DNA of 64,000 bases from Pedobacter jeongneungensis (GTDB lineage Bacteria; Bacteroidota; Bacteroidia; Sphingobacteriales; Sphingobacteriaceae), in assembly GCF_000633455.1 (NCBI RefSeq), contig NZ_AYMG01000013.1, positions 124,001 to 188,000 on the forward strand. Direction: 5' to 3'. The notes under the pieces are model-generated. The model was not told where the DNA came from and ran no database searches. It worked only from the letters and a program-made list of their open reading frames with translations. The number at the start of each line of letters is the position of its first letter. Within the stretch, counting starts at the first letter, position 1. This document shows positions 17,121-63,443 of the stretch, piece by piece. A program made the position numbers and the translations under genes.

Positions 17121-17291
17121 TTTATTGCTCGTAGTCGATAGCACGCTGGGTTATACCTCATGGCTATCAAACCATCGCCCATGAACCATCAACCTAAATT
17201 GGAAGGTAAGAGCTATCAAACCATCAACCAATCAACATTTAACTATTTAACCTTTTTTCCATAATTACCATTAAGTTCTTATCTTCGTGGC

Positions 17292-25798: not shown

Positions 25799-25911
25799 CT
25801 AAAAATATTAGTATAATGAAAGTGAAAAATCATTAAAATGATTGGTTATTGCCCTACTCGCTAGAAACGGGCGAGAGCGTGAAGATCTGACTACCCAACT
25901 CCGTGATTCCT

Positions 25912-38865: not shown

Positions 38866-39375
38866 CTATGCTGCATCAATCTTAAACCTCCTGATAGCCA
38901 GATAAAAAAAGGTAATAGAATATAAACCCGCCAACAATCCTGCGCATGCAGCGGATGGAGTAATCCCGAAATCGTGGTCAGGCGGGAAAGAGAAATGTAG
39001 CGTAAGCATCAGGGCAAATACAATTGCAATGCTATACAAACCGTTTAGGCCAGCTTTTTTTAAGATGAAAGGATAACCCGAAATTTTATCATCCACCTTA
39101 AAGTTAATTGCACCTGAATGTTGCAGCTCTTTTATTTTTTTCAAAATATCGAGGGTAATCATAAAGGGAAGCAGTAAAGACATGGGCAGTAAAAACCTGG
39201 CCAAATTTTGCTCACCGCTGAACAGGTGCACCGAATTTTGGGCTTTAAATGCAAAATAAGGTATTACCGTATTCAATACTGTGTTTGGGATAAGGTGTAA
39301 AAGCAGGTTTTTGCGCACAAACTTTCGCCAGTTCGATACTTTTATCTCTTCATTGTGCTCCACGTAATCAGGCAT
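38866..39375 (-). CDS. Small membrane protein at the end of the PKS-glycolipid operon
   Basis: A 169-residue protein with four hydrophobic segments (about 25-45, 62-80, 108-128 and 137-158). There is no signal peptide, and the N-terminus is polar (MPDYVEHNEEIKVSN). I do not recognise the family. It overlaps the preceding acyltransferase gene by 8 bp, so translation is coupled and a role in the same pathway is likely, for instance as a membrane partner for synthesis or transport of the lipid. No transporter motif is seen. Confidence 0.65.
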   Translation of the reverse strand: MPDYVEHNEEIKVSNWRKFVRKNLLLHLIPNTVLNTVIPYFAFKAQNSVHLFSGEQNLARFLLPMSLLLPFMITLDILKKIKELQHSGAINFKVDDKISGYPFILKKAGLNGLYSIAIVFALMLTLHFSFPPDHDFGITPSAACAGLLAGLYSITFFYLAIRRFKIDAA

Positions 39376-40636
39376 TGGCCAATTCGTTTAAATTTTCCTT
39401 AATCAGTTCCATGGCCCTGTCTTTGATCTGCCAGGCTTCAAATTCCCTTAAAAATGACTCGTTCGACATGAAAGAGAAATCCAGTTGTCCGTTAAAAGTG
39501 CTGCACACTAAAGTATTGGCATTTTTCCATGGAAAGGCAACGGTTGGGCTATAAATGGTTTCTATGGAAAAATCCTGATAATCCTTTGGTATATTTAAAA
39601 GCCCCATGTTGCTTAGAGTTACATCGTGGGTACCTTTTGTTGTTTTTAAGAAACCGATCATTTTATTTACCGACGAGTGGAAATACTCGCTGATGTTTAA
39701 CAGGTCGTAAACTTTCATTTCGGCTATTTTTGCATCCAGATCGTTTTTTAACACCTGAGCTTTGGTCCAGAATCTATTTTCTATTTGATCGAGTCTAAGC
39801 TCCGCAATGGGCGCAAAGGCAAACATGGTGTCCTGTTTAATGGCTTCTACAAAACGCCTGATATCAACCGGACAGATCACTTTGCCATGAGCTTTAGTGC
39901 CTTGAACATGTTTGAAAGCTTCCATAAAGGCCACACAGATGGCAGCATGCACCGTTGTGTTTTCTTCCTTGCATTTCTGCAATAGTTTTTTGGTGTTTTC
40001 GACACTAATTTTCCAGTGAACGGCATAATTGTTCCGATCTACTTGATTGTTGGAAGTGGCTTTAAAAAAGAAAAACAAGCGACCCAGGGCTGCAAAAATC
40101 TTTCCTTTAAAGTGACCGAGTTTGGAGATGGAAAAATCTTCCGGCATCAGATCGTTTACTGACAAAAACGAAGGATAAGGCGCCAGATTTTGTTGGGGAT
40201 TATCGATCAATGTCATCAGTTCGCGCATCAGATTTAAAATGGTTGTTCCATCACAGATGCAATGCGGAAGTACGAGTAAAAGATCTGATTCGGTTTCGCC
40301 TTTTAGCCAGACTAATCTTGCCAATGGTTGGTTCGGGGAATCAAAAAGTTTATACCATTCAGTTTTAGATTGTATTAACCAATCTTCATCTGTTAAACGA
40401 TCGGTAATCCTGACCGGTATTTTACTGATGTTTTCATGATGTACGAAATAGGGTGTTTTGCCTGTAGCATCGATATTCATCTGCAATAGCGGATGTTTCT
40501 GCTGGATTTTCTGCAATGCCCTGTGCAGGTTTTCTTCATTGATCTGGCCAGAGATTTTGGCGCCAAACACACAGTTTAATGGTGTTTTAGCATCCACATG
40601 CATAATCCTTTCTCCTAAAATTAATCTTCTTTTCAT
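39368..40636 (-). CDS. HxxxD acyltransferase, condensation-like (PapA/AATase type)
   Basis: A 422-residue protein of the condensation-domain-like fold used by PapA-type and alcohol acyltransferases, which move acyl groups from CoA or ACP to hydroxyls. The catalytic motif is PHCICDG (His125, Asp129). The C-terminal half has the matching 'LSNMGLLNIP' and 'STFNGQLDFSF' features. No adenylation or ACP domain is attached, so it is not an NRPS module. It is a paralogue of the interrupted gene just upstream, with a 4-bp ATGA overlap. A role in placing a PKS-made or other acyl chain on the glycoside is inferred from context. Confidence 0.82.
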   Translation of the reverse strand: MKRRLILGERIMHVDAKTPLNCVFGAKISGQINEENLHRALQKIQQKHPLLQMNIDATGKTPYFVHHENISKIPVRITDRLTDEDWLIQSKTEWYKLFDSPNQPLARLVWLKGETESDLLLVLPHCICDGTTILNLMRELMTLIDNPQQNLAPYPSFLSVNDLMPEDFSISKLGHFKGKIFAALGRLFFFFKATSNNQVDRNNYAVHWKISVENTKKLLQKCKEENTTVHAAICVAFMEAFKHVQGTKAHGKVICPVDIRRFVEAIKQDTMFAFAPIAELRLDQIENRFWTKAQVLKNDLDAKIAEMKVYDLLNISEYFHSSVNKMIGFLKTTKGTHDVTLSNMGLLNIPKDYQDFSIETIYSPTVAFPWKNANTLVCSTFNGQLDFSFMSNESFLREFEAWQIKDRAMELIKENLNELANA

Positions 40637-41922
40637 GCGGTTGCGTTTAAAATTTCAACGGGTTGCTCTACCTGGCTTTTAAGGATGGAAATCATCTTTT
40701 CTTTAATGGCTTCGGCTTCTACAAAAGGCACATAACCTTCGCTGGCTACAAATGTGAAATCCATTTGGTTGCGATAAGTGGACACAATCATCGTAGTGGT
40801 GTTACCCAAAGGCCCCATTACCGAAGGGCTAAATATGCTTTCTACTTCAAAATGCTGGTATTGATGTGGGATATCGATTTTACCAAGGTTAGAAAACATA
40901 CAATCATTACTTGATTTGCCGTATTTTAAGAAATTGGTGAAATTATGAAGTGCCGGATGGCAGGCTTCCATCATCATCATCAGGCTGTAAGGATTCAGTT
41001 TGGAAGATTTGTCATTTACATCTTTCTGTAGAGCTTTAACGTTCTCTCAAAAGTCTTTCTCTGGCAGCAGGGAAAGTACAATCATTAATCCGAAGGCGAA
41101 AATGTGGTCTTTTTTAATAATTGGGTTAAAGTTCCTGATATCAACCGGAAGTGAGATTTTGTTAAAGGCTTTTTCTTTTCTTACTTCTTTGAAAGCGGTT
41201 AAAACGGCGGCACTTAAAAGTGTATTTACCGTAAACTGATTGCTTTTGCAAAAGCGGATAATATCTTTTGTCAATTCCTGATCAAATCTCCAGTGGAACA
41301 TAAAATCTTTTTTACGCTCTACAGCTACTTTTTTGATCGGGATGATCCAAAGGGCGAGCGTGGCAATTTTACCAATCAGTCCGTTTTTGGTGCGGTTGCG
41401 GTAACTGTTCAATACTTTTGCAGGAATGACATCTTCCACACCCATAATCGGGATTTCCCTGCCGATATCGGTATCAGGATCATCCAAAAGCTGCAGTAGT
41501 TCTGTTAAAATAGAAAGGGCAGCAGTGCCATCACAAAGGCAATGGTGGTATACCATCAAAAATTCGGATACCTCTTTTCCTTTTAGCCAGGTAATGCGGC
41601 AAAGCGGTGCAGTTGTAGCATCAAAAACAGTTTTCCACTCATGGGTAGATTCCTGCTCCCAATGATCATCACCTAAACGCTCCACAATGCGAATGGGTAT
41701 TTTAAAGGCTTCGTTAAGGTTGGTTACAAACCAGGGCTTTTTGTCTTCATCAAAACGTATTGCTGCAGTTAACCAGGGGTGTTTTTTCTGGATTTTAAAT
41801 AAGGCAAACCTTAAATCATCTTCCTTGATTTCTCCCCTGATTTTGAAAGGTATTACAATGTTAAACGGATTTTTTCCATCTCCGTATAACATTCTTTCGC
41901 CGAATAGCAGTTTTCTTTTCAT
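40633..41922 (-). pseudogene. HxxxD acyltransferase, interrupted by an in-frame TGA
   Basis: The reading frame runs from the ATG at 41922 with the catalytic HHCLCDG motif (His127, Asp131). It meets TGA at 41047-41049 (codon 292) and then stays open in the same frame for a further 137 codons to 40633. The downstream part still matches the paralogue ('FSNLGKIDIPHQYQHFEVESIFSP', 'STYRNQMDFTF'). Aligned to the paralogue the stop sits at Trp (F-W-T-K against F-*-E-N), so TGG to TGA explains it. It would be a 429-codon gene if read through. It may be a recent pseudogene, a sequencing error, or two pieces that work together. The N-terminal piece holds the catalytic motif. Confidence 0.8.
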
Positions 41923-42066
41923 TTAGGTTAGTGTTGTAATGCGTTCCGTCATTCCCAACTTGATTGGGAATCGTAATGCAATAAGCTTTAAGATTCCCAC
42001 CTACGTGGGATCCGATAGCTATCGGATGACGATCGCTTTTTATAATTTACGCCTGTAAAATCGCCA

Positions 42067-43269
42067 TCAAACCGTTTCCACGGCCTGTGCTGTTTTAGCA
42101 AAATCCTCCAGCAATTGCACCGCTTTATCATTTCCACCCGCCTCGATAAAGGTTTCTTTTATTTTTTGTGCGGCCTGGCGGTATTTAGGATTTTCTAAAA
42201 GCTTAAAAACAGTTTCTCTTAAGTCGCTGATGCGTAATCGTTTGTAACGGATGCTTACGCCACAACCTGCCTGTTCAATTAATTTAGCAGTATGAAAATG
42301 ATCGTAGGCAATAGGTGTGATCAACATCGGTAAACCATTGGTGAAGGTATCGTTTACGGTATTGAAACCACCGTGACAGATTACAGCATCCATGTGCGGC
42401 ATCAGCTCTGATTGTGGCACAAAACCACTTACGATAAAATTATCAGGCCATTTTTCAAAAATATCGGGATTGGTTGCGGCCACAATGGTTACGGGCTGGT
42501 TTTCGAAAGCAGTAATCAGTTTCTGGAAAAATTCCTTACGGATATCAACCAGTAAAGTACCCAATGAGACAAATATTTTTGGCGTAGTGGCCTGGCTTAA
42601 ACGTTCCCAATCAAAAGGGGCTAAATTTGGCCGGCCTTTTACCGGGCCAACAAAATGCATGTGCGATGGTTTTTCTTCAAAACCTGCAAAAGCTTGTGAA
42701 GTGAAAACCATATTTAGCTCGTGCGAATGGATGTGGATATCGTCACTATAAATACCCACTTCTCTTTGTAAACCTTTAATCAGGTTTTGTTGCCATTCGA
42801 ATATTTTAGGGGCGCTGGTTGCCGTATCGCCCATTACATCTGGTGGTACAGGAGTGGTGGTAACCGAGGGAATGCCTTTTAAATGAGCGCTTAATGCACC
42901 AGCGAAAGTAATACAATCGTTGATGATGACATCTGGTTTCCAAACATCTACAAAGTTGTTCAATCCTTTCATCATCATTTTGGCAAAAGGAACATAGGTT
43001 TCTTCGAGTGCCAGTTTCATCACCTCTGGTCCAGAGCAAGCCGGGCCGTCATCCTGACGTTTTAAAATGCGTTGTATTTCATCAGCATACTCGGCCAGAT
43101 CTTCTTCAGGGTAAATAAATTCGCCACCTTCGGGTAAATGTACCTGAGCAAGCGGGGTAATGCCAAGCCACTTTACTTCATGGCCGCGGGCCAGTAAACT
43201 TGCGCCAATGCTTAAAGTTGGACTGATATGGCCAAAAAAGGGCGGGACAACGAAAAGGAATTTTGACAT
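42067..43269 (-). CDS. UGT-like glycosyltransferase 2 (GT1/MGT type)
   Basis: A 400-residue GT-B fold glycosyltransferase of the macrolide/zeaxanthin glucosyltransferase type. The N-terminal acceptor domain begins FLFVVPPFFGHISPTLS with the catalytic-base His. The C-terminal sugar-nucleotide site is HGGFNTVNDTFTNGLPMLITPIAYDHFHTA. Where its neighbour has Asp-Gln this one has Asp-His, and the Glu after NTV is replaced by Asp. In plant enzymes a Gln to His change at this position goes with a shift from glucose to galactose; whether this holds here is not known. It starts 10 bp after glycosyltransferase 1. Confidence 0.88.
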   Translation of the reverse strand: MSKFLFVVPPFFGHISPTLSIGASLLARGHEVKWLGITPLAQVHLPEGGEFIYPEEDLAEYADEIQRILKRQDDGPACSGPEVMKLALEETYVPFAKMMMKGLNNFVDVWKPDVIINDCITFAGALSAHLKGIPSVTTTPVPPDVMGDTATSAPKIFEWQQNLIKGLQREVGIYSDDIHIHSHELNMVFTSQAFAGFEEKPSHMHFVGPVKGRPNLAPFDWERLSQATTPKIFVSLGTLLVDIRKEFFQKLITAFENQPVTIVAATNPDIFEKWPDNFIVSGFVPQSELMPHMDAVICHGGFNTVNDTFTNGLPMLITPIAYDHFHTAKLIEQAGCGVSIRYKRLRISDLRETVFKLLENPKYRQAAQKIKETFIEAGGNDKAVQLLEDFAKTAQAVETV

Positions 43270-43279
43270 AGTGTATAAT

Positions 43280-44479
43280 TTAACTGATGAATACGTTTGA
43301 GGTTTTGTTGCTTAAAGCTTCCAGTAAATCGGCGGCACTTTCTGTTCCGCCAGCTTCTATAAAGGACTGTTTAATTTGTTCGGCAGCTATTTTATAACTG
43401 TCGTTATGCAATACTTTGTTTACCGCTTCTTTAAGGTGACTGGCTTTAAAACGGTTAAAGTTTAAGCGTTCTCCGGCACCAACCCTGAAAACACGTCCGG
43501 CTACATGGCTTTGATCGTAGGCAATCGGGATCACTATCATAGGCAGTCCGTTCATTAAAGTTTCGCAAACGGTATTGTGTCCTCCATGGCAAACCACGGC
43601 ATCAAGGTGTGGCAAAAGTTCCAGTTGTGGTACCTGGCGCTGCACGGTAAAATTAGCAGGCCATTCTTCGAATAGTGCCGGATCGGAAACCACCACCACA
43701 TGCATATCTTCATCGGCAAAAGCCTCGATTACTTTGGCAAAAAAAGCTTTTTTATGTTCGTGATCGAAGGTGGTACCAATGCTTACCAATATTTTAGGTT
43801 GGCTGGTGTGAAATGCTTCCCAGCGAAAAGGAATGGAGGTTTTGCGGCGGTTAAAAACAGGCCCTACAAATTTAAAATGCTCGGGTAAATCCATTTCCCC
43901 GAAAAAATCTCTGGAGGTAAATACCAATGTGGCAAGATCGGAGCAGGCAATGGAGCCGCTTGTAGTGATGCCGAATTCTTTTTGCAGTTCCACAATCTGG
44001 TTTACTTCCCACTCGTGTACTTTTGGCAACTCATCCATTACTTTTATAGCAGCAGGAGCGGTAACAGAAGTAACGTAAGGGTAGTTTTTGTTGGTTGCCG
44101 CAATGGCACCGGCAAACATCTGGTGATCGGTAATCACCACATCGGGCTTAAACTGATCGAGTAAACTGGCAATACCTTCGTAACTGTGTCGGTTAAGCGG
44201 AATTAATACCTCTTCGTATAAAAATTTAATACTATCGATGCCATAAACAATCTTTTTGGTGATGATGTCGAGGTATTTTTCGGAATCTTTTTTCTGCTGG
44301 TCGTTCTGGTCGTAACTGATCACGAGGAGTTCGCCTCCCTCAGGAAGTTTTTCGCCCAGTGATTGGTCTAAAGTAATCCATGCCACACGGTGGCCTCTTT
44401 CTAATAAAGCGGCACCCATACTCAAAGTTGGGTTGATGTGGCCGGTTAGGGGAGGAACAACGAATACAAGTTTTGCCAT
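43280..44479 (-). CDS. UGT-like glycosyltransferase 1 (GT1/MGT type)
   Basis: A 399-residue GT-B enzyme. LVFVVPPLTGHINPTLS holds the base His, and the donor site CHGGHNTVCETLMNGLPMIVIPIAYDQSHVA keeps the canonical Glu and the Asp-Gln pair expected for a UDP-glucose-like donor. Acceptors of this family are lipophilic (macrolides, carotenoids, polyketides), which suits a lipid chain made by the PKS. It is soluble but probably associates with the membrane. It is 10 bp from the hydrolase gene and 10 bp from glycosyltransferase 2, with which it shares length, domain order and roughly the same motifs, so the pair likely arose by duplication. Confidence 0.9.
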   Translation of the reverse strand: MAKLVFVVPPLTGHINPTLSMGAALLERGHRVAWITLDQSLGEKLPEGGELLVISYDQNDQQKKDSEKYLDIITKKIVYGIDSIKFLYEEVLIPLNRHSYEGIASLLDQFKPDVVITDHQMFAGAIAATNKNYPYVTSVTAPAAIKVMDELPKVHEWEVNQIVELQKEFGITTSGSIACSDLATLVFTSRDFFGEMDLPEHFKFVGPVFNRRKTSIPFRWEAFHTSQPKILVSIGTTFDHEHKKAFFAKVIEAFADEDMHVVVVSDPALFEEWPANFTVQRQVPQLELLPHLDAVVCHGGHNTVCETLMNGLPMIVIPIAYDQSHVAGRVFRVGAGERLNFNRFKASHLKEAVNKVLHNDSYKIAAEQIKQSFIEAGGTESAADLLEALSNKTSNVFIS

Positions 44480-44489
44480 GTGTTTAATT

Positions 44490-45254
44490 TTATGTTTCCT
44501 GGAAGAAGTTTAACAATGTTTCAGCAATTACCAATGGTTGTTGGATCGGGATATTATGATCGCCCAGTACAGCAATTAACGATGCATTTTCGATCAGCCC
44601 ATCAAGGTATTTCCCTGCATTTAAACAATTAGAATCGGTACCATATAATAATAGGGTAGCTTGTTTTATGGTTGCAATTGCCGGGCTGCCGAAAAAGTCT
44701 TTTTCGAGCTCCATATCAGTTTTAATCGAAGTTTGATAAAAAAGGTACTCGTACATGCGGTGGTTGCGTTCCATTTGCCTTTTACCCATTTTCACTTTGG
44801 TGGTATCGGTAAAATTTTCGACGTAATGCTCCAGAAATTCGCGGCTGTACTCATCAATAATTCCCCTGGTTTTATCATCATTCGGATCCGGTGCTTCAAT
44901 AATGGCCAGTTTGTTAATGCGTTCCGGAAAGCGGATGGCCATTTTTAAGGCAATCAATCCACCGAAACTATAACCGCCTAAATGAGCCTGCTTAATGTTT
45001 AATATCTCCATTAAGGCAAACAGATCGTTGGTCATACTTTCTAAATCGTATCCCTCCAAAGCCTTTTCGCTCATGCCATGACTTTTTAAGTCGTACAGTA
45101 CGACATGATATTTTGTGGCCAACAATGGCGCGATATTAAAATAATAGACAGAAAGGTTACTGAACATCCCGTGAACGAGCACGATGGTTTCAGCAGCGCC
45201 TTTGTTGAGCTCCTGAATGTGAACCGATTTGCCGCTTACGGTTATGACTGGCAT
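44490..45254 (-). CDS. Alpha/beta hydrolase of the PKS operon (possible release enzyme)
   Basis: A 254-residue alpha/beta hydrolase with HGMFSN, nucleophile Ser96 in GGYSFGG, a late acidic residue in YGTDSN and His in GDHNIPIQQP. It overlaps the ACP gene by 13 bp. The PKS has no thioesterase domain, so this protein is the best candidate to release the chain from ACP by hydrolysis or transfer. It has no signal peptide, so it acts in the cytoplasm. It could instead be an editing hydrolase; sequence cannot decide. Confidence 0.8.
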   Translation of the reverse strand: MPVITVSGKSVHIQELNKGAAETIVLVHGMFSNLSVYYFNIAPLLATKYHVVLYDLKSHGMSEKALEGYDLESMTNDLFALMEILNIKQAHLGGYSFGGLIALKMAIRFPERINKLAIIEAPDPNDDKTRGIIDEYSREFLEHYVENFTDTTKVKMGKRQMERNHRMYEYLFYQTSIKTDMELEKDFFGSPAIATIKQATLLLYGTDSNCLNAGKYLDGLIENASLIAVLGDHNIPIQQPLVIAETLLNFFQET

Positions 45255-45541
45255 TCTTCGATATAAGAAATGATCATGCCCAGGTTTAAATTGATCAGCT
45301 GATCTAAATCCATTGATGATAACCAGCCCGTAAAATCGATCTGCTCACCAAAATGTGCTTTGATTTTTTCGGAGAAGGATACGATTTCGATGCTGTCCAT
45401 TTCAAGGTCTTTGGTGAAAGAACTTTCGGGTGTGATATCCATTTCTTCAACAAATTCTTCGCCGATTACTTCAGTGATAAATTTTTTCATGAGGTCGAAA
45501 ATTTCTTCGCTGCTCAGTTTCTTAGTTGTTATACTGTCCAT
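45242..45541 (-). CDS. Acyl carrier protein
   Basis: A 99-residue discrete carrier protein with phosphopantetheine site Ser50 in EMDSIEIVSF. It is acidic, with the 'SSFTKDLEMDS' helix-II signature of ACPs. It overlaps the PKS-B stop by 13 bp and the hydrolase start by 13 bp. The C-terminal tail after about residue 80 is longer than a minimal ACP. It may carry a starter or the finished chain to the glycosyl- and acyltransferases; the PPTase domain of PKS-B can activate it. Confidence 0.9.
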   Translation of the reverse strand: MDSITTKKLSSEEIFDLMKKFITEVIGEEFVEEMDITPESSFTKDLEMDSIEIVSFSEKIKAHFGEQIDFTGWLSSMDLDQLINLNLGMIISYIEECQS

Positions 45542-48500
45542 CCGATGATATAGTTTTTATGTTTGATTGTTTTTATTGTAATGTTATTAATGCATAATTC
45601 TTCGCCGTTTACTTCTGCTACGGTATAGGCTTTCGGGTTACCCTGTAAGCCTTTACCCAGGTATTTTCCATAAGCTTCTTTGGCTACCCAGAAACGGGTT
45701 GCCCATTCAATTTTATCGCGGTTTTGAAGCAGCTCTATTTCGTGATCGTTAAAAACGAGATCAAAAAAGCCTGGGCTGCGTTCTTCAATGTGCTCGATAT
45801 CGATGCCAACCGGTTCGTTAAAACGGGCTATGCCAACGGAATCGGTGCCTTTATGCGCAATGGAAATGTTGATATTATCTGTTAAACCACCTTTAACATA
45901 AGGTTTGCGGTGTTCGTCTGAATAAATTTCGAAGGTAATCGGATAACAGGCCTGGTTTTTCTGCGTGTTCAGTAAATTCCGAACGGCATCTTTTGCTGCA
46001 ACGCGACTGATCATCCAGGTTCTTCTTTTATTGGGCAAAAGGTTGTTATGGTGTTTCTTTTCTGTTTGGTTGAAATATCTTTTCAGGATAAAATCCCACG
46101 ATACCACACGCGAATAAGCATTTCCGAAAAGAAAAACGCCAGGGGCAACCTCTTCTGATAAACGGTTGTGGAGCGGAGACATCGACACGTTCCAAAGCGG
46201 TTCGTCTATTTCCAGTCTGCGGTTCTGCCAGCCAGAGATAATGAGCCACGTAATGCCACCTCTTTTCATCACTATATCGGCCGTAGCAAATTCGTCGTTG
46301 ATTTCGGTAAGCACACAGGTACATTCGAAAGTACCTTTCTGATCGGCCATATCGCCAAAGAATTCAATCTCCTGGATCTTAACAGGGAAAGCTATCCGAT
46401 CTTTTTCTAAAGTGAGCTGCAACCACAAACCAAACAATTGACCAGCATTATCGAGCAATGAGCCTTTTCCGCCTGATGCTTCGATGATGCCTGTAATTCC
46501 TTTTTCGCCAACTGCAACCAGTTTTTTGATACCCTGATAATCTGGTCCGTGGAACATGTGGGCATCGTAAATCTGTGCAGAAGTACGGTCGATATCTAGT
46601 AATTTGCCAATATCGAAAGTTCTGTTTGGAGCGGAGTTTAACTGCGTAGCCAACTGTACTTCTGCATTTGCAAAACGTTCGAGGTTAAGGTAAAACCTTT
46701 GTTCATCTTTCCACTCGCCGGTTACGGTTTCCTGAAAAGGTTTAACCACATTCATCCATTGGAAAACGCGCATATTCATAATTTTGTGCACTTTTTCCTC
46801 TGGCGATTGCGCATTTGCAATTTCGGCAAACACTTCAAAAATCATGGTCATCGGGATCACCGGATCCATATCTTCTACCGTTGGCCAGCCTTTTGGCTGT
46901 CTTAATAGCGAGTGATCGATGAGATAGGGACAGTTCTCCAAACTCACATCCAGCGTTTTGCTAAAGGCTTGTCTAACGGGTTTTACCGGTGCGGCCGGCG
47001 CCCAGTTAACCGGCTGATCAACCTGGAAGGCTGCATTTTCGAAAAGTTCGATCATTTCGCTCTGCATGTTGATCATTTCCACTACATTCTCGTTAAAAGC
47101 CTGTAAAACGGGGTGTTTGGCTTCTACAAAAGTTTTAGGCTGCACAGGTTGATTTTGCTTAATGGTTAAACCTTTAAGTGTTTGCAGGTTATGGATAATC
47201 GGCGAGCCGAGTTCGAGTTTGATGCCTTTGTTTTTTTGAGGCGGCGTTGATTTAATGTTGCCCAGGTAATTTAGGCCGATTTCTTTTCCTTCGACAAAAA
47301 GTGCAGCCAAAACCCTTTGCAACTGCGTAATACCCGAACGGATAGGCACGTTGGCGCTAATGGTGCTAAAATCTTTCCCCCTTAAAGTATCGTCGATAAA
47401 ACCAACTAAACCACCAGAACCAACCTGGATAAATACACGTGCGCCCTCGGCATACAGTTTTTCGGTAAGCTCGCGGAAACGCACCGGTTTAATCAGGTGT
47501 TCGGCACTTAACTGGCGAATGGCTTCGAAACCTTCTGGATAAGTTTCTAAAGTAGTAGCCGACCAAAGTGGTGTAGTGGTTTTCCTGAACTGCATGTCCT
47601 GCATGCCCTCGAGGATCAATCCCAGTTTATCGGCCACAAATGGTGAATGGAAACCCGATTGAAAAGGCAGAATCTGATGAAAAATCTGTTTCACCTTTAA
47701 TATTGGTACCAGCTCATCAAGCGCGTTTTTACTGCCACAAAGAATTACCTGTTGCGGACAGTTATCGTTCGAAAGGTACAAATCGGAAATACTTTCTATA
47801 ATGGGTTGAAGGGTAGCTAAACCGGCACCAACGGCAATAAAGCGCGAATCTTTGAGTTCAAAAGTTTCGGGGTTAAGTACATTCAGTAAATTCATTACCG
47901 AACTTTCTTCTGCCAGTTCCGAAGATCTTGCTGCAAGCCATTCGCCGAGGCTGTGGCCTGCGTTCATGTCAGATTTAACACCTAATTGTTTTAAAGCCTG
48001 GTCTAAAACGCTGCTTTTGTTCAGGATATTGAGCGCTTCGCTCAAAAGACCATCCTGTTTTTCGTTTTCTTCGATACTGATGTTGAAATAATCGGCTACC
48101 GATTTAATTTCGCCATCGGCAAGCCCGTCTAAACCCGGAAAAACGAAGGCTATTTTGCCATCGTTGGCCAATAACGGCGAATTGGTATACCAGATATCCT
48201 GTTTATTTCTCCATGGAGCATTTTTAGCTACAATTTTAAGTGCTTTTTTGATCCTTTCTTCACTTGGATTGAATAATACCAGACGGAAATTGCCTTGTCC
48301 GGTGCTATAATCGCCGTTTTCGAGCGATTGAATCAAATTTTCGTGACTTTGCCTGGCAATTACCAAAACCTTATCTTTTTTAGGTGTATGGTAGGCAGTT
48401 AATACCACATGGGCATTAATTCCACCAAAACCAAAGGCATTTACGGCCGCTAGTTTTGGTAAGCCCGATTGATTCCAGTCTGCAGCTTTCTGCACCGCCG

Positions 48501-49764
48501 AAAAACGGGTTTCTGCTAGTTGCGTAACGGGTTCATCACAATGTAAAGTAGGAGGGATGATGCCATGATACAGTGCCAAGCTCGATTTAATTAAGCCGGC
48601 AATTCCTGCAGCAGGCATCGCATGGCCGATATTTGATTTAACCGAACCGATACCCGCTTTTGGCAGATCTGCATCCTGACCAAAAAACTGTTTCAGGGTT
48701 TCTACCTCGATTTTGTCGCCAAGCGGTGTACCGGTACCATGGGCTTCTAAATAGCCGATATTTTTACTTTCTAATTCTGCATTTTTCCAGGCTTCGGTAA
48801 TGGCTTTTAACTGGCCTTTAACCGACGGGCTCATTACACTGGTGCCGCTGCCATCGCTACTGATGCCCACACCTTTAATTACTGAATAGATTTTATCCTG
48901 GTCGCGGATGGCATCTTCGAGGCGTTTGAGTACAACAAAACCACAACCTTCGCCAATAATCAGTCCATCGGCATTCTGATCGAAAGGTTTTATTTTTTCT
49001 TGTTTGGATAAAGCACCCAATTGAGAAAATATGCTCCAAAAAGCAGCATTCTGACCTAAATGTACACCGCCTGCAATAATCATATCGCAACGGCCACTAT
49101 TTAGTTCCTGCACGCCATGATCAACCGCGATGAGTGAACTGGCACAGGCAGCATCCAAAGTAAAAGCCAGTCCGCCTAAATTAAGGCGATTGGCTACCAA
49201 CGAAGCCACTAAATTAGGGATCAGACCCATAGCGGTATCAGCACTAAAACGGCCTTTGCGCAATTGGAATTCGTGTTTTACCTTTTCAATTTCTGCATCA
49301 GTAAGTTGCGGCATTAAGTCTTTTAATACACTCGAAATTTGCTCGCCAGTTCTTACAATTTCGATGGCGCGGGTTGCCCCAGGCCCCGCATAATTGCCTT
49401 TGCCAATAATGATCCCAGTTTTATCGAGGGAATATTTTTTTTCGAATACAGATGCATCCTCTAATGCCTGGTGAACCAGATCTAAGGTTAACAGATGATC
49501 GGGTTCGGTACCTTCAACAGCTAAGGGTAAAATCCCGAAGCGCTGCGGATCAAAATGATGATCGGGAATAAAGCCTCCTCGGTTGCAATAAAAACGATCT
49601 ACCCCGCTCACTGCTTTGTCGAAATGCACAGGATCAATCCGATCAGCCGGAACCTCTTGTGTAGAATCTACGCGGTTGATAATATTCTCCCAAAAGGCCT
49701 GCAAATCTTTCGCACCCGGAAAAATGCATGACATTCCAATAATTGCTACGTCGCTTTTCTTCAT
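45529..49764 (-). CDS. Iterative PKS protein B: KS-AT-DH-phosphopantetheinyl transferase
   Basis: A 1411-residue protein. KS (about 3-455) is complete: Cys207 in DAACASS, His342 in EAHGTGT and His381 in NIGHAMPAAG. AT (about 535-830) keeps Ser605 in GHSLGEW and His706 in GFHSP. The oxyanion loop reads GLDG (544-547) where most have GQGS, and the Arg that holds the malonyl carboxylate is not seen, so loading of a non-malonyl acyl group is possible. A double-hotdog DH (about 935-1190) has His951 in LIDHSLLRQPKGW and the Asp1105/Gln1109 pair in DNAGQ. The C-terminal Sfp-type PPTase (about 1245-1411) has SIAHKG, GIDIE (1320-1324) and WVAKEAYGKYLGKG. There is no ACP in this protein, so it must work on the carriers of protein A or the free ACP. 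Confidence 0.92.
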   Translation of the reverse strand: MKKSDVAIIGMSCIFPGAKDLQAFWENIINRVDSTQEVPADRIDPVHFDKAVSGVDRFYCNRGGFIPDHHFDPQRFGILPLAVEGTEPDHLLTLDLVHQALEDASVFEKKYSLDKTGIIIGKGNYAGPGATRAIEIVRTGEQISSVLKDLMPQLTDAEIEKVKHEFQLRKGRFSADTAMGLIPNLVASLVANRLNLGGLAFTLDAACASSLIAVDHGVQELNSGRCDMIIAGGVHLGQNAAFWSIFSQLGALSKQEKIKPFDQNADGLIIGEGCGFVVLKRLEDAIRDQDKIYSVIKGVGISSDGSGTSVMSPSVKGQLKAITEAWKNAELESKNIGYLEAHGTGTPLGDKIEVETLKQFFGQDADLPKAGIGSVKSNIGHAMPAAGIAGLIKSSLALYHGIIPPTLHCDEPVTQLAETRFSAVQKAADWNQSGLPKLAAVNAFGFGGINAHVVLTAYHTPKKDKVLVIARQSHENLIQSLENGDYSTGQGNFRLVLFNPSEERIKKALKIVAKNAPWRNKQDIWYTNSPLLANDGKIAFVFPGLDGLADGEIKSVADYFNISIEENEKQDGLLSEALNILNKSSVLDQALKQLGVKSDMNAGHSLGEWLAARSSELAEESSVMNLLNVLNPETFELKDSRFIAVGAGLATLQPIIESISDLYLSNDNCPQQVILCGSKNALDELVPILKVKQIFHQILPFQSGFHSPFVADKLGLILEGMQDMQFRKTTTPLWSATTLETYPEGFEAIRQLSAEHLIKPVRFRELTEKLYAEGARVFIQVGSGGLVGFIDDTLRGKDFSTISANVPIRSGITQLQRVLAALFVEGKEIGLNYLGNIKSTPPQKNKGIKLELGSPIIHNLQTLKGLTIKQNQPVQPKTFVEAKHPVLQAFNENVVEMINMQSEMIELFENAAFQVDQPVNWAPAAPVKPVRQAFSKTLDVSLENCPYLIDHSLLRQPKGWPTVEDMDPVIPMTMIFEVFAEIANAQSPEEKVHKIMNMRVFQWMNVVKPFQETVTGEWKDEQRFYLNLERFANAEVQLATQLNSAPNRTFDIGKLLDIDRTSAQIYDAHMFHGPDYQGIKKLVAVGEKGITGIIEASGGKGSLLDNAGQLFGLWLQLTLEKDRIAFPVKIQEIEFFGDMADQKGTFECTCVLTEINDEFATADIVMKRGGITWLIISGWQNRRLEIDEPLWNVSMSPLHNRLSEEVAPGVFLFGNAYSRVVSWDFILKRYFNQTEKKHHNNLLPNKRRTWMISRVAAKDAVRNLLNTQKNQACYPITFEIYSDEHRKPYVKGGLTDNINISIAHKGTDSVGIARFNEPVGIDIEHIEERSPGFFDLVFNDHEIELLQNRDKIEWATRFWVAKEAYGKYLGKGLQGNPKAYTVAEVNGEELCINNITIKTIKHKNYIIGWTV

Positions 49765-49787
49765 CTGCTGTTTGGTTATGCGATTTT

Positions 49788-52700
49788 CTATGTCCAGGTG
49801 TTTCCAGCCATGATTAATACCTGGCTTTCTTTACCATATTTTAGTTCGTTCAAGAAAGTTTCCATTCCATCCTGTAACGGAATCAATGCAATTCCTCTGC
49901 GTTGGTATTCTTTTTCTAATGTTGGCGAAACCATACCCGCACCTTTCCATGGGCCCCAGTTAATTGCCATTACCTTGCCTTGAATCTTCTGTTTTAAGGC
50001 CCAGGCATATTTGTCCATTACACTGTTTGCTGCGGCATAATCGGTTTGCCCACGGTTTCCGTAAACCGAAGCGATACTCGAGAAAAGGATCACAAATTGA
50101 GTTTCTGGTCTTAATTGCTCAGCTAATACCCTTAATGGGGTTACTTTGGTGTCGAAAACACGTCCGAAAGATTCGGATGTTTTACTGTGGAACAATTTAT
50201 CTTCCAGTAAACCTGCACCATGCACTATACCATCTATACGGCCATAATCCTCATAAACCTGAGTGATTAAACGGGTTAATGCTTCTTCGTCTTTAAGGTC
50301 TAGCGATTCGTAAACTACAGTAGAACCACCTTCTTCTAAAGTTGCAATGCAACGTAAAATCTGGTTGTTTTTATAAATCCGGTTGGTTTCCTGTTCTATC
50401 TCGGCTGGTTTTTTAATTTCTCCCTGTTTAATCAGGTATTGCCTGATCTCATCTTTGGTTTTTAACGAAGAACTGGCTTCATTTGCCGATGCGATCGGGT
50501 TTGCCGAACGGCCTACCAAAATGTATCTGCAAGGATAATCTTTCGCGAAATGAATCATCAACTCGGCTGTAATGCCTTGTGCACCACCCAAAACCATCAC
50601 TACTGCATCTTTATCCAAATGGATGTGCGCATCGGTTTCGGTACTTAATTGATGCGGTACAAGTTCCATAATGTGTCTTTTATGGTCGTTGTAAATGATT
50701 TCCGAAGGTTTATCCGGATTCAGGATTTCGTTTAAGGTAATGTTGGTGATTTCATCAGGTGTCATTTTGGTTTCCAGGCTGATGAAACGGCATTTGGTAT
50801 GTTCGTATTCGCGGTCTAAACTTTTAAAGAAACCGGAGTAACCCTGATAATGTCTCAGGAAAGAAATATCCGATTGATCGTTAAAATATTGTTTGGTATC
50901 TGCAATCAGGTACACCCATTTTACAGTATCAAAGTTTAGTTTTTTTATGGTGGCGAAATGATCGAGAATGCCCACTTTTTGCTGTGCTTCGAACATGTTC
51001 AGGATAATAAGGCCCTGGTAGCCATCCAGTGAATCTTCAAAGTTCACCAGATCGGCAATGGCACCATGTTTCTCCAGCACTTTTTTGATTTTAAGTGCTT
51101 GTCCGCCGCCGTCATCGGTTAAGGCAAAACGCTGTCCTTTTAGTATGGCTGCTTCGGTAATGGTCAATGCAGCAGGAGTTAGCTCAAATCTCAAACGCGA
51201 TAATTTTTCTTTAACGGTTTGATCATCGATGCTCTCCTCAATAAGCTTTTTTGCTTCTGTAAGCACCTCCGAGCTTTCCGCTTCAACATCGGCGATCCAG
51301 TTTACCAGCGCATTTAAGGTTTTAATTGCAGCCAGTTTTTCCATTAAATCATCAGCTTTTTCACTTTGTGAGCCAAAACCGATTTTTTCTTTAAGTGAGG
51401 CAATAATTTCCATTCTTTTGATTGAATCGATGCTTAAATCAGCTTCAAGATCTAAATCCATACCCAGCATTTCTTTTGGATAGCCCGTTTTTTCACTTAC
51501 AATTTCAAGAATGGCCGATTTTAACTGGTCGATGGAGAATTTTGCAGGCTCAGCCTGGCTTGTTGCTACTGGATTAGGGGCACTAATCTCTTTTGGCTGT
51601 TCAGTATTTTCTGTAATCCAGTTTACGAGAGTAGCTAAAGTTTTAAGTCCGGCAAGCTGCTCCATAATTTTATCTTCCGGAAGGTTTAATTGAGAAAAAC
51701 CACCCAGTTCGGTACGTAAAGCACCAATAATTTCTACGCGTTTGATGGAATCGATACTTAAATCGGCTTCCAGATCCATTTCCATACCTAACATTTCTTG
51801 TGGATAGCCGGTTTTATCGCTTACTAGCTGCAAAAGCACCAGTTTTATGTCTTTTTGTGCAACAACAGGTGTGATTACTTCGATTGTTTGTGCCTGTGGC
51901 ACTTCTTGTTTTGCTGTGATCTGATTTTCGATGCGGACAGGCTGAGGTGCCTGATATGATGTTAAAGGCTGGTTCATGATTTGCGAAGGCATTGCGGGAG
52001 CCTGCCCCAGGAAGGAAAGCATTACATCGCGTTGTGCCTGAATCAGCATTTTCATGCTATGCAGGTACTCCTGCATCATCAGATCTTTGGCCGAGCCATT
52101 AACCTGTTGATTTTCGGTTAGGGTAGAGGTGTTGTTCATAAGGATAATCGGTTTAGTAATAGGTGATGCACCATTTGCCGGAAGTTTACCTGTTGATGGA
52201 ACAGCGTGTTGACCGTTAACGTACCAGATAGCCGGACTTTTTTTATAGATAGAAAGTTCATCCAGTTTGATGGTTTTAACTGAACGGCCTTCGAATAGCT
52301 TTTCTAGTTTGATTTCGCGGCCAGTAGCCATATAGCCAGCTAGTGTGCCCAATAAATTGCTGAGTTTGTTCTGACCTTGATCTTCGGTGTGTAAAATCAC
52401 TTCGTCTTTGCCGATGCAGGATTTGGTTAAGCCGCTTAGCACCTTGCCAGGGCCAACTTCTACGAAAACCCTGGCTCCGGCGGCATACATATCCCTAAGC
52501 TCATCAACAAAAAGGACAGGTTTTATCAAATGGTCGGTTAAACGTTCTTTTACAGCGGCAGCTTCAACAGGGTATTCTTTTGCAGTGGTGTTAGACCATA
52601 CCGGAATTTTTAGATCATTAAAGTTTACTCCAGAAAGCACTTTTTGGTAAAGTCGTTTCGATTTAGCCACCAATGGGCTATGGAAAGCGCAGGCTACTTC

Positions 52701-55700
52701 AAGCGGACGGAAAGATATTTTAGCTTCTTTTAAAAGCGCGGCCAATTGGCTAATGGCTGCAGTGCTACCTGCAATTATACATTGCGTTGGTGCATTAAAG
52801 TTTACCGGGTAAACATCTTTGATATTGCCCAGGTATTGTGTAAGGTCTTCCTGTTTTGCGCTCACGGCAAGCATCGTGCCCGGATCGCCGTTTTCTACCG
52901 CATTTAAAATAGCTTTTGCTCTTTCTGCACTCAAGTGAACCAAAGCTTCTTCTTCAAAAGCACCAGCAAAGCAAAGTGCTGGCAATTCTCCATAACTGTG
53001 GCCCGCAACCATATCAGGTACAATACCCAATGATTTTAAGAAATTGGCAATGGCCAGATCAACAATACCCAATAGCGGTTGCGCCATGCGGGTATCTTTT
53101 ATGCGTTCTTTTTGCGCTTTTGCATCGGCATCATTAAATACGGTATTCGGGAAAAGGATTTTTTCGTATTCAGGATAGGCTTTCAATAGTTTTCTCATTT
53201 CAGGGAAAACCACGAAAAGATCTCTGGCCATGTTTACGCGTTGGCTTCCTTGCCCTGGGAACATAAAAGCAACTTTGCCATCCTGTTTTTGAGTAAGGTA
53301 AGTGTCTTTGCTTTCTACGCCTGATAGAACAAGATCAATTTTCATTACCAGATCTTCGGCATGATTGGCTACGATGCTTAATTGAACAGGTTTGGTATCA
53401 GCAGTTGCTAAGCTATAGGCAATATCTTTCAGTTCGATCTGATCGTTCAGTTCTAAAAGGTTTTTTACCGAAATAATACTTGCTTTAGCTTCTTCATACG
53501 TATCACCTCTGAAAACAAAAAGTTCAGAAGGCCATGATTTTAAGATCGAATTTGTGTTTTCTATATTTTGCGCACTTTCCAATACGGCATGGAAGTTGGT
53601 TCCGCCGAAACCAAAGGCACTTACACCCGCATATCGTTTTTCTTCCATCCATAAACCAGCTTCCGTATGGAAAGCAAATGGACTGGTTTGAGCATTGTAG
53701 AAACTATTTGGTGTTTTTAAATTGATGGTAGGTGGTTTAATGCCATGGTAAACTGATAAGGATGCTTTGATTAAACCCGCAATTCCGGCAGCACATTTGG
53801 TATGGCCAATCTGTGTTTTTACAGAGCCTAAATGTGTCTGCCCTACGGTTGCGCCTGATTGGTTGAGCATATCGGTTAGTGCGCTGATTTCTGTTTTATC
53901 ACCAACTACGGTACCCGTACCATGTGCTTCTACCAAACCAACCAGTGATGGTGTAATTCCAGCCTGACTGTAGGCTCTTTCTAAAGCATTTACCTGTCCG
54001 TTTTTGCGTGGTGCAGTTAAACCAAGGCTTTTGCCGTCGCTTGAGCCACCTACACCTTTAATAATCGAATAAATCGTATCACCATCGCGTAAAGCATCCT
54101 CGTATCTTTTTAATACGATCATGGCAATACCTTCGCCAAGGGCAATTCCATCGGCTTCGGCATCAAAAGTGGCACATCTTCCTTTTTTAGAGAGGGCGTG
54201 TGTGCTCGAGAACATGAGGTAATCGTTAATGCCGTTGTGCAGATCTGCTCCACCGGCCAAAACCATATCCGATTTCTCTAAAAATAACTCCTGACAGGCC
54301 AGATCGATTGCTGCCAAAGATGAAGCGCATGCCGCATCAACGGTATAATTTCTGCCGCCTAAGTTTAACCTGTTGGTGATCCTGCCCGAAATTACGTTTG
54401 CCAAAATGCCAGGGAAAGAATCTTCAGTGGTTTTTGGCAATACGGCATCTACTTCAGCTGGCATTTCGCCGAAAACTTGTTTGTAAAAGCCCCTAAAACT
54501 GTAGCTGTTAGCCAGATCGTTTCCACCTTCGGCACCAATAATTACCGAAACATTTTCGTTATCCACACCGCCATCGGCATAACCTGCGTGCTGCATGGCC
54601 TGTTTGGCTACCATTAAGGTAAGCAGTTGGGTAGGTTCTATGGCCGCAAGCGACTGCGGTGGAATACCAAATTCTAAGGGGTCAAAATCTATCCTTGGGA
54701 TAAAACCGCCCCATTTAGAGTGCGACATATCGCCATCAGTAGAATCGGGGTTATAATAGAGTTCTTTGTTCCATCTTTCATCCGGTACTTCGGTTACCGA
54801 ATCCTTACCCAAAATAATATTGCGCCAGTATTCTTCGAGGTTTTTAGCCCCTGGAAAGATACAGGCCATTCCCACAATGACCACATCAAGGGCTTTCGCT
54901 TTATTTTGTGGGGGTATTGGGAGTGTGGCATTTAATATGTGCGTATAGTTATGGGCGGCTACATCCTGATGCAAATCAAGCAGCGACATTACCTCTTTAT
55001 GCATAGGGGCAATCTGACCAATCATGTACATACCCAGATCAGTTTGTTCTGCCTCGTCGATTTTTACCAGATCATCGCCACGTCTTTCAATTCCCTTTGC
55101 AGCAATTCGCAAACGGCCAACATTAAGCGACTCGAGTTTAGCCCAGATTTCTTTTTTATCCATTCCTTCTGCCTGAAGTTTCTTTTTTTCTTCATTAAAG
55201 AAAGTGGTAAATGAAGAATTTAAACACCTGGTTTCATGTCCTGGAGCGGTTTCAAGCAGTACAGTTTCGTTTGCCAGCATGGCTTCCTGCTGGAATTTGT
55301 TTAAAATGGCACCAGTACTTACCGCTTCTTTGGTATATAAGTATGCAGTGCCCATTAATACACCGATTTTCATTCCTTTGGCAGCCAAAGGAGCAGCCAT
55401 TACCGAAATAAAAGCGGTAGAAAAAGCATCATGAATGCCGCCGGCAAAGAAAACACTAATACTTTCCGGATTTTCTTCTTTTAATAAACGTTCGATCTGT
55501 TTTTCCCATAGTACCATGCTTGATAGGGGGCCAACATGACCGCCACATTCGCGGCCTTCGAACACAAAACGTTTAGCACCTTCTTTTAAAAACATGTCTA
55601 AAAGAGAGGCAGAAGGCACGTGTAGGAAGGTTTTTATACCAGCTTTTTCAAAGGGTTTAGCCTGCGAAGGTCTGCCGCCTGCAATTAACAAAACAGGTGG

Positions 55701-56819
55701 TTTAGCTTCTAAAATATATTCCTGTTGCTCATCTCTCAGTTCTTGCGGCGCAAAACCTAAAATACCAACGCCCCAGGTTTTTTCACCCGCCAGTTTTTTG
55801 GTGTCTTCGATCAGGTTTTTTGCCGATACACCTTTTAATAAGGAAAGCGCAATAAATGATAAAGCTCCAGCTTCCGAAACGGCATCAGCAAAGGGCGCTA
55901 CATCGCTTACCCTGGTCATTGGACCTTGCGCAATAGGATAGGTGATGTTCAGATCTTGTGCAAGTGAGTTATTCGCTTTTATTACATTGATGGCTTTTGC
56001 TTGTTTTAAATGACCATAAATGGCTTCTTTTATGCCGAAAACCAATTTATCAAGCTTTTTATATTTGGTAACCAGGTCAATCGATAACGCAATATCTTGA
56101 CCCATTGGAAGATAATTGCTTTCCAGATCGTAACCTTTAAAATATTGCTGAAGACCATTGTAATCTGTATCTTCTGCCAATGCCGGTGAATTTGGACGGG
56201 CCAATACGCGGCAGTTATCAATCAGTTTAGTTTCCGTTCCACTTAATTTGCCGCAAACCGCTTTTAAATCTTCGGGTGCGGAACACTCGGGGAACAAAGC
56301 CAGTTGACTATCAAAAATAATGCCTGCTGCGCCCTGAGCCATTAAAGAGGCAGCAGTATGGATGCCCACACCGCCCTGAACCCAAACCGGAATGTTAACT
56401 GCTTTAATAATGCGTTGAAAAAGCACAAAAGAAGATTCGTAAGCCACACGTCCGGCGCCTTCATTTCCTTTTACGATAATTCCATAAGCGCCGTTTTTTT
56501 GTGCAGCTATAGCCGATTTAAGATCGAAAACCTGATGGATGATTTTTGCGGTAGTTTTGCTTTTTAGCGAAAGATCATAAGGCGCAATTACTAAACTTAC
56601 CTGTTCAGGAAGGGTGATATTGGCCATTTCAACTGAATTGATACTTACACCGAAATTGGATATGCCGGAGGCGATAAGTGATTCGATAGCATGTTTAGCT
56701 TCAATTAAACGATGTCCAAGGCTGAGAACCGGAAAGCAATCTGCTTTTTGTAAATTGGAAACCAATCTTTGATCTGGGATTTCGAATGGAGTTACTCCAA
56801 TAATGGCGTATTTGTTCAT
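49788..56819 (-). CDS. Iterative PKS protein A: tandem ER-KS-AT-ACP-ACP-KR
   Basis: A 2343-residue protein of the Pfa/secondary-lipid synthase type. Residues 1-640 form two consecutive nitronate-monooxygenase-like FMN barrels (KGNEGAGRVA... and FEGRECGGHVG...), the PfaD-like enoyl reductase. KS (about 643-1080) is intact (Cys831, His966, His1006). AT (about 1180-1500) has GQGS, Ser1275 in GHSYGE, Arg1300 and His1380, fitting malonyl. Two tandem ACPs (Ser1691, Ser1799) share the Pfa-like LSIDSIKR site. After a linker there is an active-looking KR (about 2070-2330: GGAQGIT, Ser2248, Tyr2261, Asn2265). It lacks the many ACPs, the KS-CLF pair and the duplicated DH of PUFA synthases. It lies 23 bp before protein B; together they have all the steps for a reduced or partly unsaturated chain. 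Confidence 0.92.
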   Translation of the reverse strand: MNKYAIIGVTPFEIPDQRLVSNLQKADCFPVLSLGHRLIEAKHAIESLIASGISNFGVSINSVEMANITLPEQVSLVIAPYDLSLKSKTTAKIIHQVFDLKSAIAAQKNGAYGIIVKGNEGAGRVAYESSFVLFQRIIKAVNIPVWVQGGVGIHTAASLMAQGAAGIIFDSQLALFPECSAPEDLKAVCGKLSGTETKLIDNCRVLARPNSPALAEDTDYNGLQQYFKGYDLESNYLPMGQDIALSIDLVTKYKKLDKLVFGIKEAIYGHLKQAKAINVIKANNSLAQDLNITYPIAQGPMTRVSDVAPFADAVSEAGALSFIALSLLKGVSAKNLIEDTKKLAGEKTWGVGILGFAPQELRDEQQEYILEAKPPVLLIAGGRPSQAKPFEKAGIKTFLHVPSASLLDMFLKEGAKRFVFEGRECGGHVGPLSSMVLWEKQIERLLKEENPESISVFFAGGIHDAFSTAFISVMAAPLAAKGMKIGVLMGTAYLYTKEAVSTGAILNKFQQEAMLANETVLLETAPGHETRCLNSSFTTFFNEEKKKLQAEGMDKKEIWAKLESLNVGRLRIAAKGIERRGDDLVKIDEAEQTDLGMYMIGQIAPMHKEVMSLLDLHQDVAAHNYTHILNATLPIPPQNKAKALDVVIVGMACIFPGAKNLEEYWRNIILGKDSVTEVPDERWNKELYYNPDSTDGDMSHSKWGGFIPRIDFDPLEFGIPPQSLAAIEPTQLLTLMVAKQAMQHAGYADGGVDNENVSVIIGAEGGNDLANSYSFRGFYKQVFGEMPAEVDAVLPKTTEDSFPGILANVISGRITNRLNLGGRNYTVDAACASSLAAIDLACQELFLEKSDMVLAGGADLHNGINDYLMFSSTHALSKKGRCATFDAEADGIALGEGIAMIVLKRYEDALRDGDTIYSIIKGVGGSSDGKSLGLTAPRKNGQVNALERAYSQAGITPSLVGLVEAHGTGTVVGDKTEISALTDMLNQSGATVGQTHLGSVKTQIGHTKCAAGIAGLIKASLSVYHGIKPPTINLKTPNSFYNAQTSPFAFHTEAGLWMEEKRYAGVSAFGFGGTNFHAVLESAQNIENTNSILKSWPSELFVFRGDTYEEAKASIISVKNLLELNDQIELKDIAYSLATADTKPVQLSIVANHAEDLVMKIDLVLSGVESKDTYLTQKQDGKVAFMFPGQGSQRVNMARDLFVVFPEMRKLLKAYPEYEKILFPNTVFNDADAKAQKERIKDTRMAQPLLGIVDLAIANFLKSLGIVPDMVAGHSYGELPALCFAGAFEEEALVHLSAERAKAILNAVENGDPGTMLAVSAKQEDLTQYLGNIKDVYPVNFNAPTQCIIAGSTAAISQLAALLKEAKISFRPLEVACAFHSPLVAKSKRLYQKVLSGVNFNDLKIPVWSNTTAKEYPVEAAAVKERLTDHLIKPVLFVDELRDMYAAGARVFVEVGPGKVLSGLTKSCIGKDEVILHTEDQGQNKLSNLLGTLAGYMATGREIKLEKLFEGRSVKTIKLDELSIYKKSPAIWYVNGQHAVPSTGKLPANGASPITKPIILMNNTSTLTENQQVNGSAKDLMMQEYLHSMKMLIQAQRDVMLSFLGQAPAMPSQIMNQPLTSYQAPQPVRIENQITAKQEVPQAQTIEVITPVVAQKDIKLVLLQLVSDKTGYPQEMLGMEMDLEADLSIDSIKRVEIIGALRTELGGFSQLNLPEDKIMEQLAGLKTLATLVNWITENTEQPKEISAPNPVATSQAEPAKFSIDQLKSAILEIVSEKTGYPKEMLGMDLDLEADLSIDSIKRMEIIASLKEKIGFGSQSEKADDLMEKLAAIKTLNALVNWIADVEAESSEVLTEAKKLIEESIDDQTVKEKLSRLRFELTPAALTITEAAILKGQRFALTDDGGGQALKIKKVLEKHGAIADLVNFEDSLDGYQGLIILNMFEAQQKVGILDHFATIKKLNFDTVKWVYLIADTKQYFNDQSDISFLRHYQGYSGFFKSLDREYEHTKCRFISLETKMTPDEITNITLNEILNPDKPSEIIYNDHKRHIMELVPHQLSTETDAHIHLDKDAVVMVLGGAQGITAELMIHFAKDYPCRYILVGRSANPIASANEASSSLKTKDEIRQYLIKQGEIKKPAEIEQETNRIYKNNQILRCIATLEEGGSTVVYESLDLKDEEALTRLITQVYEDYGRIDGIVHGAGLLEDKLFHSKTSESFGRVFDTKVTPLRVLAEQLRPETQFVILFSSIASVYGNRGQTDYAAANSVMDKYAWALKQKIQGKVMAINWGPWKGAGMVSPTLEKEYQRRGIALIPLQDGMETFLNELKYGKESQVLIMAGNTWT

Positions 56820-59473: not shown

Positions 59474-59474
59474 G

Positions 59475-63427: not shown

Positions 63428-63443
63428 GAAATGAATTCGTTTT

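Follow-up and report, generated by a model that had tools for sequence, protein, structure and literature searches.

What does a run of nine adjacent genes make when it joins an iterative polyketide synthase (PKS) to glycosyltransferases and acyltransferases? The question is raised by positions 38866-56819, on the minus strand, of a stretch of the Pedobacter jeongneungensis genome (assembly GCF_000633455.1, contig NZ_AYMG01000013.1, positions 124,001 to 188,000); this whole stretch of 64,000 nucleotides is the window, and all coordinates refer to it. Read 5' to 3', the genes encode PKS1 (starting at 56819), PKS2, a free acyl carrier protein (ACP), an alpha/beta hydrolase, glycosyltransferases GT1 and GT2, acyltransferases AT1 and AT2, and a membrane protein (ending at 38866). 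We consider it fairly probable that the nine genes constitute a single acylated-glycolipid pathway, in which a lipid built by the iterative PKS would be glycosylated twice and then esterified. A first-pass annotation of this DNA had arrived at such a scheme; its observation appears essentially right, and its suggestion of an acylated glycolipid is supported more strongly by the comparative evidence given below. Gene content, domains, catalytic motifs, co-conservation, and the duplication and fusion of the glycosyltransferases are direct observations.

The spacing of the genes agrees with what had been described, namely gaps of at most 23 bp or overlaps apart from a single gap of 144 bp. With AT1 counted as one gene, the successive distances are 23, -13, -13, 10, 10, 144, -4 and -8 bp. 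The cassette has a GC content of 42.4%, the whole window one of 39.7%. GC content, a type 9 secretion gene and related loci point to Bacteroidota as the host phylum. The cassette is found in the same order in all 15 of the same-genus relatives examined, a recurrence that places the arrangement far beyond chance. One of these 15 (G018) gives no match to the membrane protein and carries a third acyltransferase. Of 301 genomes sampled from the family, 39 have PKS2; among 146 genomes of the genus, 52 have the acyltransferases. Beyond the genus, the same gene order is present in further genera of the family (one genome, G314, with three acyltransferases) and in two other families, f22 and f26; the cassette is also present in Chitinophaga sp. 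CF418 (L188), and near-complete in Dyadobacter frigoris, with three acyltransferases and no membrane-protein match. In genus g38 it is divided into two blocks, PKS1-PKS2-ACP and hydrolase-GT1-GT2 with two acyltransferases and the membrane protein, which lie ~15-25 kb apart with nothing lost. Flanking genes are common to close relatives only, and the cassette is kept where all flanks differ; the boundaries of the unit are therefore sharp. No extra gene recurs beside the cassette outside one clade. We regard the nine genes as one functional unit. A PKS2 tree, made by a quick method, groups families f22 and f26 with genus g39, inside the source strain's own family, which points to horizontal transfer, of PKS2 at least.

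The synthase is divided between two proteins, with the domain orders of the first-pass annotation confirmed by Pfam and NCBIfam. PKS1 (2343 amino acids; 49788..56819, minus strand) carries an enoyl reductase (ER) at its N end, followed by ketosynthase (KS), acyltransferase (AT), two ACP and ketoreductase (KR) domains. PKS2 (1411 amino acids; 45529..49764, minus strand), also supported by motif checks, carries KS, AT, a PKS-type dehydratase (DH) and an Sfp-type phosphopantetheinyl transferase (PPTase). The Cys-His-His triad is intact in both KS domains, the motifs in PKS1 being ACASS, HGTG and GHTKCAAG. The PKS1 AT is of the malonyl type (Ser1275, Arg at +25 and an AFHS motif), and the ACP motifs of this protein lie at residues 1690 and 1798. 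The fused ER is a PfaD/FabK-like flavin mononucleotide enoyl reductase, with a match to FabK in the PDB and, toward the N terminus, a partial second NMO-like repeat.

Several of these features would suit a polyunsaturated fatty acid (PUFA) synthase that feeds membrane lipids. By Pfam and TIGR02813, PKS1 has the PfaA-type arrangement KS-MAT-ACPn-KR (MAT, malonyl acyltransferase), and it scores above the cut-off of that NCBIfam model, omega_3_PfaA (1045 bits, cut-off 1010); Pfa synthases of types A-E in the scheme of Shulse and Allen (2011) share with the cassette this protein, a PfaD-type ER, a PPTase and a PfaB-like second, non-malonyl AT. We nevertheless consider a PUFA product very improbable. 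PKS2 contains one KS with a complete active site, and Pfam searches of this protein found no KS-like chain-length factor and no FabA family match. Since both defining domains of PfaC, a FabA-type dehydratase/isomerase and a chain-length factor, are absent, a polyunsaturated product is unlikely. In each of 13 homologues the DH is PS-DH, a PKS-type family; it falls just under the Pfam cut-off in this strain's protein, matches CurK and CurF in the PDB, and has an invariant His and Asp. Furthermore, the glycosyltransferases and acyltransferases are inseparable from the synthase in Bacteroidota. The cassette also differs from Pfa synthases in the position of the ER at the N end of PKS1, in the fusion of AT and PPTase into PKS2 and in its free ACP. 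The earlier description of the synthase as Pfa-like therefore has to be given up in the PUFA sense, the AT being fused here to the second KS.

The AT domain of PKS2 retains Ser and His, but Leu takes the place of the Arg and there is no GQGSQ motif. The malonyl Gln/Arg pair is missing from all 15 aligned sequences, which come from several phyla, and judged by its motifs this domain is not a malonyl transferase. PfaB, which is likewise reported to have lost the Gln-Arg pair, has a demonstrated role as terminal acyltransferase (PMC12895367); its nucleophile motif is GYSxG, as opposed to GHSxG here. From this likeness we infer that the PKS2 AT moves finished chains, and the comparison suggests a role in terminal chain transfer. 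The adjacent free ACP (99 amino acids; 45242..45541, minus strand) is recognized by the Pfam PP-binding family. The PPTase of PKS2 gives a weak Sfp match, and the genome holds two PF01648 matches besides it; it is possible that the cassette is self-sufficient through its own PPTase.

The synthase does not occur only in Bacteroidota. A protein search of plasmids identified two Streptomyces plasmids (NZ_CP108492.1 and NZ_CP108735.1) in which PKS1, PKS2, ACP, hydrolase and a glycosyltransferase follow one another in the same order, and are then followed by a methyltransferase. Identities over the aligned stretches are 43.6% for PKS1, 36% for PKS2 (over 98%), 27% for ACP, 28% for the hydrolase and 32% for the glycosyltransferase against GT1. 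Unlike the Pedobacter cassette, these clusters have a single glycosyltransferase, include a methyltransferase and lack acyltransferases as well as a membrane protein. We then drew on a species-level scan, with one genome per species and a Streptomyces reference sequence, of which the 80 best loci were kept, so that its counts are no measure of abundance. Most of these 80 loci are from Streptomyces and Amycolatopsis, and the other hosts are Kibdelosporangium, Actinomadura, Kutzneria, Myxococcota, Acidobacteriota, Gemmatimonadota and Bacteroidota. The five-gene core PKS1-PKS2-ACP-hydrolase-GT is complete, in the same order and on the same strand, in 68 of them; of the remaining 12, ten are cut off by a contig edge and two, from Gemmatimonadetes, have no detectable glycosyltransferase. 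The free ACP follows PKS2 in 73 loci, a methyltransferase is present in 37, and acyltransferase matches occur in two only, both from Bacteroidota. The cassette is not unique: Actinomycetota commonly have its core, which also occurs in several further phyla. As a separate observation, six loci that are neither actinobacterial nor from Bacteroidota (L170, L176, L178, L184, L186 and L187) have two tandem alpha/beta hydrolases instead of one.

The actinobacterial gene content brings to mind a different kind of product, the macrodiolides or oligomers of glycosylated hydroxy fatty acids, in which the hydrolase and acyltransferases would join two glycosylated chains and the Bacteroidota cassette would make a two-sugar variant. 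Glucolipsin, cycloviracin and fattiviracin consist of long hydroxy or trihydroxy fatty acids with glucose, joined by esters, some with O-methyl sugars (PMC4365757). The clusters of Actinomycetota hold exactly PKS1-PKS2-ACP-hydrolase-GT, often with a methyltransferase, and the core is present in Kibdelosporangium, the genus of a cycloviracin producer (PMC4365757), and in several Amycolatopsis. These three compounds are accordingly a lead, as the best-fitting known products for the actinobacterial gene content. On the other side, the producing strains are absent from the genomes scanned, most carriers are not known producers, and our search of the openly available literature returned no gene cluster for glucolipsin, cycloviracin or fattiviracin. 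Nor, to our knowledge, is there one for any of the three. On balance we judge this account unlikely for the cassette.

The same scan bears on whether the PKS chain itself receives the sugars. The acyltransferases might instead pass that chain straight to a different molecule, a glycoside that GT1 and GT2 would build on another scaffold. In mycobacterial acyltrehaloses, PKS-made chains are placed on trehalose, and it is established that, in making mycobacterial lipids, PapA-type enzymes accept chains borne on PKS carrier domains. The hydrolase could have a part in this as well: Chp2, a separate enzyme, transfers acyl groups by transesterification in acyltrehalose synthesis (PMC4183827). However, the core of Actinomycetota and other phyla has a glycosyltransferase and no detectable acyltransferase homologue, so that the simplest reading has the glycosyltransferase use the PKS chain as its acceptor, and we find a separate glycoside quite unlikely.

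GT1 (399 amino acids; 43280..44479) and GT2 (400 amino acids; 42067..43269), both on the minus strand and of the MGT family, share 41% identity. In a tree with long branches and uncertain rooting, GT1 occupies the place that the lone core glycosyltransferase holds in other phyla, and GT2 forms one clade confined to Bacteroidota, with support of 100/100. In genus g39, GT1 and GT2 are fused into one protein of 812 amino acids. The tree and the fusion together suggest that the chain receives its first sugar from GT1 and the second from GT2. The earlier proposal that the chain is glycosylated, possibly twice, before being esterified gains support from the fusion, from GT1 as the counterpart of the core enzyme and from GT2 as a Bacteroidota-only duplicate; the PapA5-like acyltransferases, which lie late in the operon, agree with esterification as the later step.

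The free ACP, hydrolase, two UGT-like glycosyltransferases and membrane protein are all present where the first-pass annotation had placed them. The alpha/beta hydrolase (254 amino acids; 44490..45254, minus strand; Pfam) has a Ser-His pair, S96 and H233, that is invariant among 16 sequences, and is predicted to be a thioesterase or transesterase. Its structural model (pLDDT 86) matches generic esterases and hydrolases and is not decisive; the enzyme may release the chain, or act by transesterification in the manner of Chp2. The membrane protein (169 amino acids; 38866..39375, minus strand) is predicted to contain four long helices and is the final gene of most Bacteroidota cassettes. It has no reliable match in Pfam and profile searches, and its model (pLDDT 80) matches no fold in the PDB.

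Two HxxxD acyltransferases had been counted in the operon. Both loci exist and both carry the motif, HCLCD in AT1 (40633..41922) and HCICD in AT2 (422 amino acids; 39368..40636), each on the minus strand and PapA5-like, but only AT2 is intact. AT2 matches PapA5 in the PDB (8s6l, E=4e-22) and, under its cut-off, NCBIfam PRK09294. In mycobacteria, PapA5 esterifies lipid hydroxyls. AT1 consists of two open reading frames in the same frame, 41047-41922 (291 amino acids) and 40633-40980 (115 amino acids); one TGA, codon 292 (41047-41049), breaks a frame that is otherwise open over 429 codons. In six close relatives AT1 likewise spans 429 codons, and the stop position is occupied by Leu or Ile; a Trp-to-stop change, which had been entertained, was dropped on account of these residues.

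An interrupted gene might mean that the pathway is decaying in this strain and yields little or no product. Among the 52 genus members with acyltransferases, AT1 is also broken in one (G006) and AT2 contains a stop in another (G873), which would fit such decay. Against it, all the other genes of the cassette are intact, and the codons 5' and 3' of the AT1 stop show similar identity and a similar excess of synonymous change. As conservation is equal on either side, the stop is, by this comparison, either a very recent change or a sequencing error, and we hold decay of the pathway to be improbable. The broken AT1 of G006 lies at L040:3695-4971, and a further relative, G002 (L047), has a broken GT2; the broken genes in relatives are tailoring genes, with none among the PKS2 genes examined.

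An acylated-glycolipid pathway of the kind favored here could proceed as follows, each chemical step, substrate and the order of steps being ones that we infer. The PKS1 AT would load malonyl units, and the chain would grow on the two PKS1 ACPs, which the fused PPTase could activate; elongation would use KS, KR, the PKS2 DH and the PfaD-like ER, with a hydroxyl kept in the last round or rounds. The PKS2 AT would then unload the completed chain from the synthase, the free ACP being the likeliest acceptor, and the alpha/beta hydrolase would release or transesterify it. GT1 would place the first sugar onto a hydroxyl and GT2 would add the second, the two PapA5-like acyltransferases would esterify free hydroxyls of the sugar or chain, and the membrane protein may anchor the product or pass it on. 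Several points weigh against this scheme. Because MGT-type glycosyltransferases and HxxxD acyltransferases vary in substrate, the sugar and the acceptor are unreadable from sequence. In some Bacteroidota copies of the hydrolase the usual position shows no clear catalytic acid, and the role of the neighboring free ACP as chain acceptor is a guess. AT1 is truncated in this strain, and, barring suppression of the stop or an error in the sequence, the strain's product may therefore lack one acyl group.

How does this cassette relate to known lipid pathways? Heterocyst glycolipid (hgl) synthases are Pfa-related PKSs whose long chain is glycosylated, and a thioester reductase releases that chain as an alcohol. 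The cassette differs in having a hydrolase, two glycosyltransferases and two acyltransferases, and Pfam and NCBIfam detected no thioester reductase domain in its proteins. The mycobacterial pathways for acyltrehaloses and phthiocerol dimycocerosate (PDIM) have in common with it a PapA5-type HxxxD acyltransferase beside a lipid-making PKS, as the 8s6l match indicates; PKS architecture and phylum differ. Shulse and Allen (2011) distinguished 20 types of secondary lipid synthase, 14 of them without a known product (PMC3098273). Among these is an uncharacterized Type N synthase from Chitinophaga pinensis and Chryseobacterium gleum (PMC3098273), whose hosts are Bacteroidetes, as are those of the cassette, which one Chitinophaga (L188) carries. 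The Type N synthase may be identical to that of the cassette or overlap with it; the text on Type N mentions no tailoring genes (PMC3098273). A 2026 survey of PUFA-synthase hybrids contains none of 'Bacteroid', Pedobacter or Chitinophaga in its text (PMC13291983). A literature search, with subscription papers and cluster databases outside its scope, found no product for the gene set of the cassette.

What is new is less this locus than a conserved and apparently uncharacterized pathway family, with its kin among the Pfa-related secondary lipid pathways. More tentatively, and with somewhat more doubt than belief, we propose an unnamed, widespread class of glycolipid pathway, in which a five-gene core found in Actinomycetota, Bacteroidota, Myxococcota and others would use a PfaB-like AT to pass finished chains to a free ACP; the Bacteroidota branch would have added GT2 and two or three PapA5-like acyltransferases, leading to a doubly glycosylated, multiply acylated lipid. 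If this is true, one pathway family spread over several phyla makes glycolipids not yet tied to genes, and the Bacteroidota cassette offers a compact nine-gene system for finding the first of them. It would also set a glycolipid branch apart from the PUFA synthases under which it is presently annotated (NCBIfam PfaA), test the PfaB-like AT as a general terminal transfer device, and show a lipid pathway diversifying through duplication of tailoring genes and movement between families.

The remaining observations concern the non-coding DNA and the neighborhood of the cassette. The 144-bp gap between GT2 and AT1 (41923..42066) is variable among relatives and contains a palindromic repeat, the 24-bp element TTCCCAATCAAGTTGGGAATGACG at 41947-41970, which also occurs at 6775-6798. 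Genome-wide there are 36 exact copies of this element and none of its reversed control. Promoter and terminator scans gave no signal above chance, and a tRNA was the sole match to Rfam. Upstream of PKS1, the intergenic region 57425-58069 holds a 186-bp tandem repeat (3.5 copies, 92% match), and further tandem arrays lie at 25907-26212 and 16942-17121, with units of 87 bp and 44-51 bp. Positions 35695-37773 encode a protein of 692 amino acids, with no Pfam match, that is a conserved neighbor of the cassette only within the close clade. The region 58109-63484 holds two ABC-2/DUF3526 permease-like genes and the gene of a TonB-dependent receptor; these upstream genes were considered as pathway parts and dropped, being common at this site to one close relative only.

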